Source: Tomocerus qinae (lineage: Eukaryota > Arthropoda > Collembola > Entomobryomorpha > Tomoceridae). Taken from it: a DNA stretch of 64,000 nt. Position numbers and translations under genes: made by a program. The notes below the pieces were generated by a model. That model was not told where the DNA came from. It made no database searches and saw nothing but the letters and a program-made list of their open reading frames with translations. Positions 20,936 through 62,890 of the stretch are shown here, piece by piece (position 1 is the stretch's first letter; each line of letters opens with the position of its first letter). The DNA lies in contig CM034547.1 in NCBI GenBank assembly GCA_020055645.1, positions 25,816,513-25,880,512 of the forward strand, read 5' to 3'.

Positions 20936-21342
20936 CTTCCTACAATATCTTTAGTATTTTATAAATAAGGGCTATTTTCTCTTTCAGCACTCAATTTTAT
21001 AAATTATCATACCAGTAAACGTGTGTGTTGTGTACAGTACAGTCACAGCCCAGAGTCGAAAGTTGGTTTGGCGGATGGTGTGTGATTTATGAATCATGAA
21101 TCAATAAAAGCCATACACAATAAAGAATATAGCAATAATTTAGCCATAATATAGCAAAATAATGTAGAAATTCAACTTGATAGAAATAGTTTGATTGCAA
21201 TACATAATGAAGTTGAACCTTCACATAAATAACCGGATCATTTTCGTTCCTGAAATACTTACCAGTTATCACAGGTTATCACGATGCCACATTTTCAGCA
21301 TGGCACATCAAACCATATAAAAAGATTCCAATGTTCGCAATC
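20936..21342. other. inter-element spacer
   Basis: AT-rich sequence between two foldback elements. No gene or repeat was recognised. Confidence 0.4.
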
Positions 21343-21701
21343 GGGTTGGGTTGCTGCAAACGGGACGCAGTAAGCAAAAATTTTCTAAGTTTTTTTCCCA
21401 ATGGAAAATCGTACCCAAATTTTTCTAAGTTCTTTTCCCACTGTAAGAATGACGAATTCAGTCTTCAGTGTATAATCACTTTTTAAGCCACCCGTCACTA
21501 TTTTTGCCTTTTTTCTAACCTAACCTAATAAAAATGAATATAATAAATGTTTGGTTGTTTCAATTTTATTAGGTTAGGTCAAAAAAGAGGCAAATAGTGA
21601 CTAGTTTTGAAAATACTTAGAAATTTGTTGCCTGATTTTTACATTGGGAAAAAACTTAGAAAATTTTCGGTTACTGCGTCCCGTTTGCAGCAACCCAACC
21701 C
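21343..21701. mobile_element. MITE with about 65-bp terminal inverted repeats
   Basis: A 359-bp element begins GGGTTGGGTTGCTGCAAACG and ends with its reverse complement. The inverted ends extend about 65 bp with a few mismatches. GCAATC directly abuts both ends (21337-21342 and 21702-21707), a likely 6-7 bp target duplication. The centre is a second inverted pair containing CTAACCTAACCTAA and TTAGGTTAGG. The whole unit could fold into one long hairpin. No coding capacity. Confidence 0.8.
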
Positions 21702-22227
21702 GCAATCGCGCTCGCAAGCATTTCAAGCATATGTACGATTCAAAATTTTTCGGGTCAGGTACTTGTCCCCTGTGGGCCAGAGCTATCTGACCCGCTATTT
21801 CAACACAGCCTATGATAGAGTTAGATTGTAGAGTATAGAGTCTATACAGCGTGCCGTGTATCTTTGCCACAAGAACCGATAACCACCTGAAACAGAGAGT
21901 CACATTTAACCAAAAAAGATAATAAATATAATATCTATAGTAGATCTGGATTTGCCGAATAAAGATAGATTTCCGATTTTCCATTCCTGGTCACCGTGGA
22001 ACACTTGGCGGTGCACGATAACTTTCTTAACGGTTTGAGCTAGACTGTTCAATTTTTAGGGCAGCTTCTTGAGGTACCACCGAGTAAGTAAATGGGCAAT
22101 ATCGGTCAATTTTCAGTTCAAAAACTAAAAATAATTTAAAATCGGCCTAACTTAGTTTCTAGTCATCCTACAACGTCATGCTGTAAACATTAACTTAGCG
22201 AAGTATTTATTGAAAATTAAAAACCTA
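21702..22227. other. inter-element spacer
   Basis: No gene seen. The open frame overlapping 21607-21831 is mostly a reading of the MITE arm and its flank. Confidence 0.4.
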
Positions 22228-23236
22228 CAGCAAGCCGTAACTGAAGCTCGCCTGAGTAAAGGTTACCGTGTACACATTTTGGTAGTCGAAAAGTACTCGC
22301 ACGTAACACAAAACGGAGCGTACAGATTTTGATCAAACTTTCAGAATTGAGTCTTTATATATGCAGCTACGACATATTAAAAATTCAGACATTGATATAA
22401 TAAGGAAACGAAGCTATATCATTTGAAATATCAACATAAAATCAAAATTGGTTAATATTGACAGTGAAAATCAACCGAAAATCAAAATCGATTAATGTTG
22501 ACTATGAAAATCAACACAAAATCAAAGTACATTAATGTTGACTATAAAAAATGAACAGAAAATCAAAGAACATTAAGGTTGACTATGAAAATGAACAGAA
22601 AATCAAAATTGATTAATATTGACTATCAAAATGAACAGAAAATCAAAATTGATTAATATTGACTATCAAAATGAAGAGAAAATCAAAATTGATTAATATT
22701 GACTATCAAAATGAACAGAAAATCATACATTAATGGTGACTATAAAAATCAACAGAAACTCAAAATTGATTAATGTTGACTATTAAAATCGACAGAAAAT
22801 TAAAATCGGTTAATAATGACTATCAAAACTATAAGGGAATCGAAAAATGAAATATAAATCCAAAATAGATTTATTTCCATCGTCTAATAGTTATTTTCCG
22901 GTTTTATTTGCATTATTATAAAATTATAAATTTGGAAGAAGCGGATGAAAATAATTTATACTATTACGGTAACATATTATAGGAAACGCCATTGAACTTT
23001 TTTAATGCCCATTTTCCACTTTGACTATCAAAATGAAGACAAAGTGAGCGCGCAGTATCTCAGCAGCCAATGGACCTATTTACCCCAAAATCAATAGGGA
23101 TCGTCACTGGGCCATAGGTATTGCTTTTGCCAAATTTGGTCAATATCCGCCATTGCGTTCGAAAGTTATCGTGGGGACGGACGGACGTACGGACGGATTG
23201 TGAGGTTCTATAAGCTGCCTTATTCAGGCGAGCTAA
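22228..23236 (+). mobile_element. Helentron/HINE-like non-autonomous element, copy 1
   Basis: The unit starts near ACAGCAAGCCGTAACTG and has a subterminal AGCTCGCCTGAGTAA (22245-22259), which recurs inverted as TTATTCAGGCGAGCT (23220-23234). The core (about 22400-22810) is a 40-bp minisatellite, unit GATTAATATTGACTATCAAA followed by ATGAACAGAAAATCAAAATT. A conserved 3' block follows, with GGACGG repeats, then an imperfect hairpin directly before the terminal CTAA. Short subterminal inverted repeats, a tandem core and a 3' hairpin ending CTRR match the layout of Helentron-derived HINEs such as Drosophila DINE-1. No helicase is encoded, and the family assignment is inference. Confidence 0.7.
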
Positions 23237-25056: not shown

Positions 25057-25121
25057 AATTGTTTTTATTACTGTGATGAGTTGCCTATTGAATTTCGTCC
25101 CTTTGCTGGGTTCACTAGTAA
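25057..25121 (+). repeat. direct repeat, left copy
   Basis: The sequence AATTGTTTTTATTACTGTGA, then a partly diverged middle, then GCTGGGTTCACTAGTAA is repeated in the same orientation at 27165-27249. The end CTAGT resembles a Helitron 3' terminus, but no hairpin is clear. The pair encloses 2.1 kb that includes the hairpin at 25485 and the long palindrome at 26163. Confidence 0.6.
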
Positions 25122-25484
25122 ATATATATATTATATTATGTCTGTAATTTAAGCTACCAGTACTGCATTTTAATTTCAAAAACAACAAATTACTGTACTA
25201 AATAAAGCAATTTACTTATTTCAACATTGTTCTAGCACATTGTGCTAAGTGTGCAGCTAGTTACAGTATCTTCTCTATAATATAATCCTAGACTTGAAAA
25301 AAATTACCAATGTATGGTTGTCTTGGTAGGAGAACTTAGGAAATCTACATATATTATGTAATGCAAAACCCTCTCCCCCATGTGTAATGCCAGTGCTGGC
25401 TGCAGCACTTTTGAGTACATCCTCCTCCCATCAACTGCACACGTAATATATGCATGTTCCTTAAACGCAAAATTCGCAAGCCCA

Positions 25485-25580
25485 ATTAATGTTTTTAATA
25501 ATGTACCCCAACGCATACCTTCATGTGCTAAATTTAGTACATGGAGGTATGCGTTGGGGTACATTATTGAAAACATTAAT
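25485..25580 (+). repeat. 96-bp near-perfect hairpin
   Basis: Two 48-nt arms run from ATTAATGTTTTTAATAATGT to its reverse complement, with the core ACCCCAACGCATACC. Only three positions differ between the arms, and in a plus-strand transcript all three become G:U pairs. The centre is CTAAATTTAG, so the loop is minimal. It may be a tiny MITE or a small-RNA precursor. Confidence 0.75.
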
Positions 25581-26162
25581 TCCTTTAAACAACCGAAAAG
25601 AGTCTTTTCATATTATTGTAACGTTGTAACATCAAAACAATAGAAATTTACACAAGAAGGTTGAATGGTGGTGATTCGTGATTGAATGGAAATGATTGGC
25701 AAAAGGGGACATTTCGTAATGATCGTAACGTGACTTATTAAATAGCATTTCAAAATTTCTAATCCAAATTGGTTCTGTTATATCGACAAACTTTCAGAAC
25801 TGGGTTTACTTTTTTACTACTCTATATTGATTCCTTTGGCAGTTGGCACACCTTTTTATAGAGTTAAATAACAGTACTGGGTAACTAACTATTTATTTAA
25901 AAAAAATATTTATTCGTAAGTTGTACTCATTGAATTTGTACGTATTTCCAAAATCCCAGGGAGAATCTTATTTTTTGATTTAAAAAGGGAGTTGTTTCTG
26001 TTTGGTGACTTTGTGGGATTTTTTTCAAAAATGGAGTCTGAAATTGTTCCCTGAATTTGATGCTACGATCTACAGTTATTATTTTGGTGCAGGAAATTCC
26101 TGTTTATCAGGAAGTTGGGGCTGCAGCTAATTTCAACAAACACAAGATAATAAAAGTATATT

Positions 26163-27100
26163 AAGGACATGGCACAAATCTTATGGACCATGTGTTTCGA
26201 GGGAATAAATCCGTTTTAATATGATTTGTGGCCACTAATATGGAGGTAAAAAGTGAAAGAGGAAACGCTCTGAATGTTGACCGTTCACGAGATATTCCGT
26301 GTCAAAGGTCAACATGTCATTCCCTTATGACCCCCATCGAGCAATACATCAATCGAAAGGACTTACTCTCCTGAATCCAAAAATACCATACACTTGACCT
26401 CTGTGACCTACAGGTCAAATAATATATGCAAAAGTTTTGACTCATTTCAATATTTATGTATTCCTAGTAATGTTACCCGTCCTACGGACGTGGCATTAGG
26501 TACGTAGGTCGGTAGGTGGATAACAATGTGGTTAGGTTAGGTTAGGTTAGGTTAGGTTAGGTTAGTACAATGTGGTTACTGTACATAAAATGCCCGCTCG
26601 GCTCAGAAGGGTAACATAGCAGTAAGTAATGCTACACAATTGCATTAAAAGTGGACGCTGGTGATTCTAAATAACAACATAACTGATATATGGTTGGAAA
26701 AAGTACTAACTTATCTTCATGTTACTCACAGTAACTACATTGTTATATACCTACCTACGTACCTAATGCCACGTCCGTAGGACGGGTAACATTACTAGTA
26801 ATACATAAATATTTAAATGAGTCAACACTTTTGCATATATTATTTGACATGTAGGTCACAGAGGTCAAGTGTATGGTATTTTTGGATTCAGGAGAGTAAG
26901 TCCTTTCGATTGATGTATTGCTCGATGGGGGTCATAAGGGAATGACATGTTGACCTTTGACACGGAATATCTCGTGAACGGTCAACATTCAGAGCGTTTC
27001 CTCTTTCACTTTTTACCTCCATATTAGTGGCCACAAATCATATTAAAACGGATTTATTCCCTCGAAATACATGGTCCATAAGATTTGTGCCATGTCCTTT
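26163..27100. mobile_element. 938-bp foldback element with about 360-bp arms
   Basis: The left arm (26163 to about 26534) and right arm (about 26742 to 27100) are long inverted copies with few mismatches. Landmarks shared in inverted order are AAGGACATGGCACAAATCTT, the GGAGGTAAAAAGTGAAAGAGG block, GTTACCCGTCCTACGGACGT and TAACAATGT. About 165 bp of unique sequence forms the loop. No open frame or known transposon end is visible. The left arm carries a TTAGG tract that the right arm lacks. Confidence 0.85.
26530..26564 (+). repeat. interstitial telomere-type (TTAGG)n tract
   Basis: Seven perfect GGTTA units, equivalent to (TTAGG)7, the canonical arthropod telomere repeat. The tract is bracketed by a 12-bp direct duplication ACAATGTGGTTA (26523-26534 and 26567-26578). 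The right arm of the enclosing palindrome has one ACAATGTAGTTA at the equivalent place and no tract. Confidence 0.9.
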
Positions 27101-27164
27101 AAATATTTAAGTGTTTAAATATTTAAATTTACAAAGGTAACATAATAACCTATTGGGATGTTAT

Positions 27165-27249
27165 CGAAATTGTTTTTATTACTGTGAAGGGTGGCCTTCT
27201 GAATTTCTCTTGAGTACTAGATTTGCCCCTTAGCTGGGTTCACTAGTAA
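27165..27249 (+). repeat. direct repeat, right copy
   Basis: Partner of the copy at 25057-25121, sharing its start and its GCTGGGTTCACTAGTAA end. The middle contains about 20 extra bases relative to the left copy. Confidence 0.6.
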
Positions 27250-27356
27250 TCTATACAACAAGTTTTCATCAATGTGATTTCATCAATTTCTTTTTTATTT
27301 ATTTCTGAAGCTAGAATACTTACAAACACGACAAACCTCAATTTTGTTATACTTTA

Positions 27357-34263: not shown

Positions 34264-34634
34264 CATGCATTTAAAATTCATCATAATATCTTTACATCGA
34301 CTGTTATAACTTCCGGAGGATCAGTCTGATTTTTATGGGACCTACATTTTTGGAACCGTGGACTATCAAGGAACAAAAGTTACCATTCGGAATTTTGATA
34401 TAGTTGTTTTAAATGCATTTAAAAAAATCAAATTCCCAAAAAAATGAGTCATTTTTAGTTTTTTATAAAACGTTGATGTTTTTGGTCCATTTAAAGCAAC
34501 TATATCAAAATTCCGAATGGTAACTTTTGTTCCTTGATAGTCCACGGTTCCAAAAATGTAGGTTCCATAAAAATCAGACTGATCCTCCGGAAGTTATAAT
34601 AGTCGATGTAAAAGATTTTTTAACATGCATTTTG
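34264..34634. mobile_element. foldback element with about 145-bp inverted arms
   Basis: The left arm (about 34266-34420) and right arm (about 34486-34630) are inverted copies with few differences. Shared landmarks are CTTCCGGAGGATCAGTCTGA, TTTTTGGAACCGTGGACTAT and AAAGTTACCATTCGGAATTT. ATGCAT occurs at both outer ends. It is about 370 bp, non-coding, and unrelated by eye to the other foldback elements here. Confidence 0.8.
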
Positions 34635-61159: not shown

Positions 61160-61215
61160 TTAAATTCAAGCACCTCCAAACAAATTCGAGCACCTCCAAA
61201 TAAATTCGAGCACAT
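61160..61215 (+). repeat. left remnant of the 20-bp satellite
   Basis: Three to four units of AAATTCGAGCACCTCCAAAT lie immediately upstream of the second HINE-like copy. The array resumes at 62137. Confidence 0.8.
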
Positions 61216-61233
61216 TCGAAAAAATCTTAAAAA

Positions 61234-62136
61234 CAGCAAGCCGTAACAGAAGCTCGCCTGAGTAAAGGTGTCCGTGTGCACATTTTTGGTAGAATAATAG
61301 AAGTAGATTTATTTTGATTACTAAAGTGAACAGTAATACAAATTAGATGATCATTTTTCAAAATACAAAAATAAATTAACGTTGGCTATCAAAATCGATG
61401 GAAAATCAAAATAGATTAATGTTGAGTATCAAAATCTACAGAAAATCCAAATAGATTAATGTTGAGTATCAAAATCTACAGAAAATCCAAATAGATTAAC
61501 GTTGAGTATCAAATTCTACAGAAAATCCAAATAGATTAATGTTGAGTATCAAAATCAACAGTTAATTAAAATTGAGTAATATATTGAGTATCAAAATCAA
61601 CAGGAAATCACAATTGAATAATATTTAGTATCAAAATAAGCAAAAAATCAAAATTGATTAATATTGAGTATGAAAACCAAAAGAAAATCAAAATCGATTG
61701 ATATTAACTATCATAACAAAAGATACTTCGAAAAATGTAAATTTGTCTGTCACCACATAATAGATTTATTTCCGTTCTATAAAAGTTATTATCCTGTTTA
61801 TTTACTTCAATATAAAATCTTAAATTTGGTTGAAGCGGAGTTAAATATTACATACTATTAATTGAACAATTTTTAGGAAACACAATTGAACTTTTTAATG
61901 TCCATTTAATGCCAATTTTTCATTTTGACTATCAAAATGAAGACAAAGTAAGCGCGCGGCATCTCAGCAACCTATAGACCGATTTGAACCAAATTGAATA
62001 GGGTTCGTCAGTGGTCCATAGGCATTGTTTTTGCCAAGTTTGGTCAATTTCCGTCGTTGCATTCAAAAGTTACAGTGTTGGCGAACGGACGGACGGACTG
62101 TGCGGTTCTATAAGCTGCCTTATTCAGGCGAGCTAA
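61234..62136 (+). mobile_element. Helentron/HINE-like element, copy 2
   Basis: It shares with copy 1 the 5' start ACAGCAAGCCGTAACAG, the subterminal AGCTCGCCTGAGTAA (61251-61265), the stretch GTGTGCACATTTTTGGTAG, and a 40-bp tandem core (unit GATTAATGTTGAGTATCAAA then ATCTACAGAAAATCCAAATA, about 61400-61700). It also shares the 3' block with GGACGGACGGACTGTGCGG, and the inverted TTATTCAGGCGAGCT (62120-62134) with terminal CTAA. It separates two parts of the 20-bp satellite. Confidence 0.75.
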
Positions 62137-62890
62137 AATTCGAGCACCTCCTAAGAAATTCGAGCACCTCCAAATAAATTCGATCACCTCCAAATAAATT
62201 CGAGCACCTCCAAATAAATTAGAGCTCCTCCAAATAAATGCGAGCACATCCAAATAAATTCGAGCACCCCCAAATACATTCGAGCACTTTCGAAAAAATT
62301 CAAGCACACCCAAACAAATTCGAGCACATCCAAACAAATTCGAGCACCTCCAAATAAATTCGAACACCTTCCAATAAATTCGAGCACCTTCAAATAAATT
62401 CGAGCACCTCCAAATAAAATCGAGCACCTCCGAATAAATTCGAGTACCTCCGAATAAAATTCGAGCACATTTGAAAAAATTCGAGCACCTTCGAAAAAAT
62501 TCGACCACCTCCAAAGAAATTCGAGCACCTCCAAAGAAATTCGAGCACCTCCAAATAAATTCGAGCACCTCCAAATAAATTCGAGCACCTCCATATAAAT
62601 TCGAGCACCTCCAAATAAAATCGAGCACCTCCGAATAAATTCGAGAACCTCCAAATAAAATTCGAGCACCTCCGAATAAATTCGAGCACCTCCGAATAAA
62701 TCCGAGCTTCTCCAAATAAATTCGAGTTCCTCCAAATAAATTCGAGTTCCTACGAATAAATTCGAGTTAGTACGAATAAATTCGAGTTCCTCCGAATAAA
62801 TTCGAGTTCCTCCCAATAAATTCGAGTTCCTACGATTAAATTCGAGTTCTTCCAAAACAATTTGAGGTCCTCCGAATAAATTCGAGTTCT
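62137..62890 (+). repeat. 20-bp satellite array, about 37 copies
   Basis: Tandem AAATTCGAGCACCTCCAAAT units with scattered substitutions; toward the right the unit shifts to AAATTCGAGTTCCTCCGAAT. Since 20 is not a multiple of 3, three units give a 60-bp, 20-codon reading on the minus strand. This produces long apparent frames (62044-62855) that are not genes. Confidence 0.95.

Follow-up and report, generated by a model that had tools for sequence, protein, structure and literature searches.

How did a telomere-type repeat come to stand in one arm of a palindrome and not in the other? In the window, which is the whole 64,000-nucleotide stretch of DNA that was analysed, a foldback (inverted repeat) spans about 26164-27098 with a loop of about 145 bp. 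Its left arm contains seven GGTTA units, and its right arm contains none. The features of the locus are as follows.

26161-26163, no strand: TTA left of the foldback, matched by 27099-27101, a candidate for the element's target duplication at 3 bp (weak evidence in AT-rich DNA)
26164-26582, plus strand: left arm of the foldback by arm alignment, insert included, starting with AGGACATGGCACAAATC and ending with CTGT
26523-26534, plus strand: copy 1 of ACAATGTGGTTA, whose last 5 bases double as the first telomere unit of the tract
26530-26564, plus strand: perfect (GGTTA)7 tract, equivalent to (TTAGG)n, 7.0 units, with the G-rich strand heading toward the loop
26565-26566, plus strand: GT between the tract and copy 2 as read from the sequence (alternatively, G from one more unit, followed by T)
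26567-26578, plus strand: copy 2 of ACAATGTGGTTA, an exact copy
26583-26727, no strand: loop of the foldback, since the local arm alignment stops at CTGT
26728-27098, minus strand: right arm of the foldback by arm alignment, without the tract
26732-26743, minus strand: empty site in the right arm, ACAATGTAGTTA, which reads TAACTACATTGT at 26732 on the plus strand
27099-27101, no strand: TTA right of the foldback, read directly from the sequence

Read toward the loop, the left arm runs from copy 1 (26523-26534) through six more GGTTA units (26535-26564) and GT into copy 2 (26567-26578) and CTGT. Tandem Repeats Finder (TRF), run on the 64-kb window, placed the GGTTA tract at 26530-26565 with 100% matches. 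The two copies starting at 26523 and 26567 were the only exact occurrences of ACAATGTGGTTA on either strand of the window. The letters and coordinates of the tract and of its two flanking copies were therefore as the original prediction had given them.

On its minus strand the right arm carries ACAATGTAGTTACTGT a single time, from 26743 down to 26728. This bore out the claim of one site copy and no tract there. Ungapped, the arms could be compared over 361 nt at 98% identity, and with 44 bp (26535-26578) omitted from the left arm, 364 of 376 aligned columns were identical, so that the arms were indeed otherwise alike. As a single strand the palindrome folds into one long hairpin of -449 kcal/mol, versus a mean of -95 for 20 shuffles.

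The long near-identical inverted arms (364/376), the short spacer and the candidate TTA flanks resemble those of foldback or MITE-like elements. The foldback is presumably a long-inverted-repeat MITE-like DNA element. Unlike typical foldback elements, it showed no second copy within the window (blastn; 26100-27160 matched only itself). None was found with exact arm patterns either, two searched in viral contigs and one in prokaryotic contigs, a result that tells little because of the nature of these collections and the demand for exact matches.

The surroundings contain other repeats. A direct repeat of about 72-88 bp (25057-25128 and 27168-27255; 63 of 89 columns alike) flanks the foldback, its copies lying 2.1 kb apart. 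A palindrome at 25484-25581, with two 49-nt arms that are 94% complementary and no spacer, lies within a minus-strand stop-to-stop open reading frame (ORF). An inverted repeat at 34291-34612 has 87.6% identity between its arms. A 20-bp minisatellite, AAATTCGAGCACCTCCAAAT, is present in 37.5 copies at 62136-62886, with a block of 3 copies of a nearly identical unit about 1 kb off, at 61162-61225, and a 40-bp minisatellite family occurs at 22424-22828 and 61369-61713. Ten of the 69 stop-to-stop ORFs were scanned against Pfam; five gave matches (CUB, guanylate kinase, Frizzled with an E-value of 7.9e-26, eIF6 and AAA) and the other five gave none. These genes indicate an animal genome. Two introns of the eIF6 gene, read by eye, end in TTTTAG and GTTTAG, which speaks weakly against a typical nematode; the eIF6 protein had an arthropod-like look, an impression that does not amount to a test. 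Searches with satellite patterns gave no match. The window yielded no tRNAs with ARAGORN and no Rfam matches at the gathering threshold.

How well does the right arm define the insert? Omission of the 44 bp raised the local arm-alignment score from 687 to 695, a gain of 8. Seven of the 16 best single deletions beat 695, with 48 bp from 26515 giving 699 and six others giving 696. The right arm by itself is therefore not enough to delimit the insert. The flank joins were common to both arms: ATA joined to ACAATG on the left, in copy 1, and GTTA joined to CTGT on the right, in copy 2. Past copy 2 the arm homology consists of CTGT (4 bp) only, which places the insert at the arm/loop border. The wording that the tract was inserted in one arm is thus fair, with the qualification that the place is this border. 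An alternative pairing of the arms, between GTTAGTAC after the tract and GTTAGTAC on the loop side of the right arm, was treated as chance, since random 60-mers shared an 8-mer in 148 of 2000 trials, although it would account for the GT filler.

The flanking duplication had been put at 12 bp. Two exact 12-bp copies are present, but 5 of the 12 bases form one telomere unit and belong to the tract, which leaves an independent duplication of 7 bp, ACAATGT. This part abuts the tract on the left and lies 2 bases off on the right. Since the GGTTA of copy 1 also belongs to the tract, the target duplication measures between 7 and 12 bp. With this duplication and the 2-bp filler, the flanks are changed as in end joining, by a test so lenient that unchanged flanks would pass as well. 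The bases in register with the telomere repeat number five (GGTTA) in copy 2 and four (GTTA) in the tract-free right arm. Such bases at the break end are common in short ITSs (interstitial telomeric sequences) made in break repair, though not obligatory.

Chance expectations were taken from 200 first-order Markov windows with the same dinucleotide make-up as the real window. The longest GGTTA array in them was 1 unit in 186 and 2 units in 14, and none exceeded 2, versus 7 in the real window. For arrays of any pentamer, the longest was 2 units in 164 and 3 units in 36. In the real window the tract was the sole GGTTA array of at least three units and the sole perfect pentamer array of more than three; besides it, two pentamer arrays reached three units. 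The TTAGG class, one of 102 for pentamers, holds 1.06% of the composition-weighted mass (weight 0.0106). The motif GGTTAGG/CCTAACC occurred 7 times outside the tract, above the Markov mean of 4.0 (sd 2.1) but inside the range (maximum 10 in the 200 windows). This lack of clear enrichment gave no sign of further scars in the window.

The duplication was treated similarly. Under a loose rule (offsets of up to 8 per side), 422 of 20,000 pseudo-tracts placed at random in the window, its tandem arrays included, had a duplication of at least 7 bp. For the tight placement, with 0.273 as the match probability, the expectation for 7 bp is about 3 x 0.273^7 = 0.0003, and 0.0008 was computed for 7 offsets. 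Six perfect arrays of 14 bp or more, with units of 1-6 bases, were found in the window; the 7-bp flank duplication of the GGTTA tract was the longest among them, the other five having 3-5 bp. All four IMG/VR loci with GGTTA arrays (6, 11, 8 and 8 units) showed flank duplications of 2-4 bases; these four viral contigs make a poor control.

The differences between the arms are not spread evenly. Of the eight substitutions, seven fall in 26413-26534, the loop-side third, and there is also one 4-bp indel. Divided otherwise, the outer 250 bp of 26163-26534 has one substitution, and the inner 122 bp has seven and the indel. The clustering gave P = 0.0023 with a boundary picked after the data had been seen. 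Within 23 bp to the left of the tract there are two substitutions and the 4-bp indel, and one further substitution lies in the first tract unit. Conversion may keep the outer arms alike, or extra damage may have hit the inner ends.

We propose, at a probability of about 0.58, that the tract is a short interstitial telomeric sequence (ITS), made during break repair by telomerase or from captured telomeric DNA, with a target duplication. A staggered break would have struck a pre-existing foldback element at the inner end of its left arm. The left break end, ...GTGGTTA-3', which matches the telomere repeat in register over five bases, would have been offered to telomerase. About six GGTTA units would have come from the enzyme or from a captured telomeric fragment. 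Once the opposite break end had been filled in, its joining to the extended end would have left the GT filler and the duplicated ACAATGTGGTTA.

The pieces of this proposal that can be read directly are the GGTTA tract, both copies of ACAATGTGGTTA, the GT filler and an opposite arm that lacks the tract. The left flank of the tract-free arm carries on in copy 1 and its right flank in copy 2, which is the pattern after insertion at a staggered cut. We infer the break, the enzyme and the direction of the change (gain in the left arm over loss from the right). We also assume that the chromosome ends of the host species are TTAGG, so that the tract would match its own telomere. Against the proposal, the right side is anchored by CTGT alone, omission of the insert gains only 8 score units, and the inner arm stretch has been altered in other ways too, by the substitutions and the indel. 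The earlier suggestion of a break filled by telomerase or telomeric DNA thus kept its empty-site logic, and scars of the same class are published, but its duplicate proved to be partly tract and its right anchor to be 4 bp. A joint origin of palindrome and insert appears unlikely, since the arms are long and nearly identical and their short flanks match, which gives the palindrome the look of an element.

Scars of this kind have been described in mammals. In primates and rodents (PMC2246262, 2007) and in human and horse (PMC7215372, 2020), ITSs are reported to appear in one step at breaks, with in-register bases far above chance (PMC2246262, PMC7215372), and they are set apart there from microsatellites born by slippage (PMC2246262, PMC7215372). 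Target duplications are given for 6 of 130 loci in rodents and 4 of 25 in primates (PMC2246262) and for 3 of 66 in the horse (PMC7215372); at one horse locus, a duplication is accompanied by GG in register (PMC7215372). Of 40 loci scored for in-register bases (9 with none and 31 with at least one), six have at least four and two have at least five (PMC7215372). The consensus of a repeat element serves as the empty state for ITS loci (PMC2246262), and inversions or inverted duplications were made with the insert at 3 of 66 horse loci (PMC7215372).

The present locus resembles these mammalian ITSs, as they are described there, in having a short pure internal telomeric tract and a tract-free counterpart. 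It also shares the flank duplication, found at some of those loci, the in-register bases, and an insert in a repetitive element judged by the element's own sequence. It differs in the repeat, which is TTAGG here and TTAGGG there, and in the tract-free state, which is the other palindrome arm here and an orthologue or a consensus there. Unlike the three horse loci with inversions made alongside the insert, the palindrome here looks pre-existing, as we infer from its structure. TTAGG is given as the ancestral telomere repeat of arthropods and insects (PMC8977481); most nematodes are reported to have TTAGGC telomeres (PMC9071541), and TTAGGC is reported lost in Trichinellidae (PMC10844300). Among titles and abstract openings, no published telomeric insert in one palindrome arm was found.

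Could the tract have arisen as a microsatellite, with no telomerase or telomeric DNA? A local tandem duplication of ACAATGTGGTTA with GT filler would then have been followed by slippage of GGTTA in the first copy. Copy 1, GT and copy 2 would make an ordinary small tandem duplication, GGTTAG would supply six bases of the repeat from the start, and the adjoining GTAGGTCGGTAGGTGG stretch has a 4-bp indel between the arms, as slippage can produce. The perfect tandem pentamer is also what a pentanucleotide microsatellite looks like. Unlike such a microsatellite, it coincides with the arthropod telomere unit (one of the 102 classes) and its flank duplication reaches beyond the unit. Moreover, two independent events are required, the array must grow from one to seven units without any imperfect unit, and nowhere else in the window does a perfect pentamer array exceed three units. 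We regard this origin as somewhat unlikely. The earlier argument that slippage would not easily copy a 12-bp flank holds insofar as a separate local duplication would be needed, but duplication followed by slippage stays a rival.

The tract may instead be ancestral to the foldback family and have disappeared from the right arm, for instance through a deletion that ran from one 12-bp copy to the other. When direct repeats recombine out in this way a single copy stays behind, and the result mimics a never-filled site exactly. The right arm had been taken as a record of the unbroken state, which agrees with the way copies 1 and 2 continue its flanks but is open to this objection. A second foldback at 21342-21702 has (TTAGG)2 in both inner arms, which favors an ancestral tract, although there the motif runs the other way with respect to the loop. 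On the other hand, the right arm reads AGTTA and not GGTTA, so that an extra base change is needed, and blastn within the window found no homology between the two foldbacks. Overall this loss appears improbable. Still less credible, and in our view a marginal case, is that the sequence from 26535 on is loop, with a simple repeat at the arm/loop border, a chance CTGT match and an arm that was never interrupted. The short homology past the tract (copy 2 and CTGT only) and the scores of 687 vs 695 agree with it. Of the 16 positions of copy 2 and CTGT, however, 15 match the right arm, and CTGT alone would match by chance at about 0.273^4 = 0.006.

The second foldback is more diverged, with 130 of 200 aligned columns alike. 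Its inner arms read CTAACCTAACCTAATAAAA on the left and, on the other strand, ACCTAACCTAATAAAA on the right. The (TTAGG)2 motifs are TAACCTAACC at 21516 and AGGTTAGG at 21571, and the C-rich strand runs into the loop. Their presence in both arms may mean that such motifs belong to the elements. They may also be chance, given the 14 of 200 Markov windows with a two-unit array.

Within the proposed break repair, the palindrome might have caused its own break, by cutting of an extruded hairpin at the stem-loop junction followed by telomerase healing. The insert ends 4 bp from the end of the arm homology, and a hairpin cut would account for where the insert lies, for the stagger and for the neighboring cluster of differences. 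We consider this cause doubtful, and quite unlikely as matters stand. If it is true, foldback elements would be breakage sites, and in a TTAGG genome they would bear healing scars, each with a built-in control in the other arm.

The most likely reading of the locus is a repair scar of a known kind at an unusual place. As a single locus it is an example, and not a test, of telomeric break repair. If the reading is true, the use of telomeric DNA in break repair, established in mammals, would also have marked a TTAGG-repeat genome, and palindromic elements would supply an internal tract-free control for each scar, without a second species.
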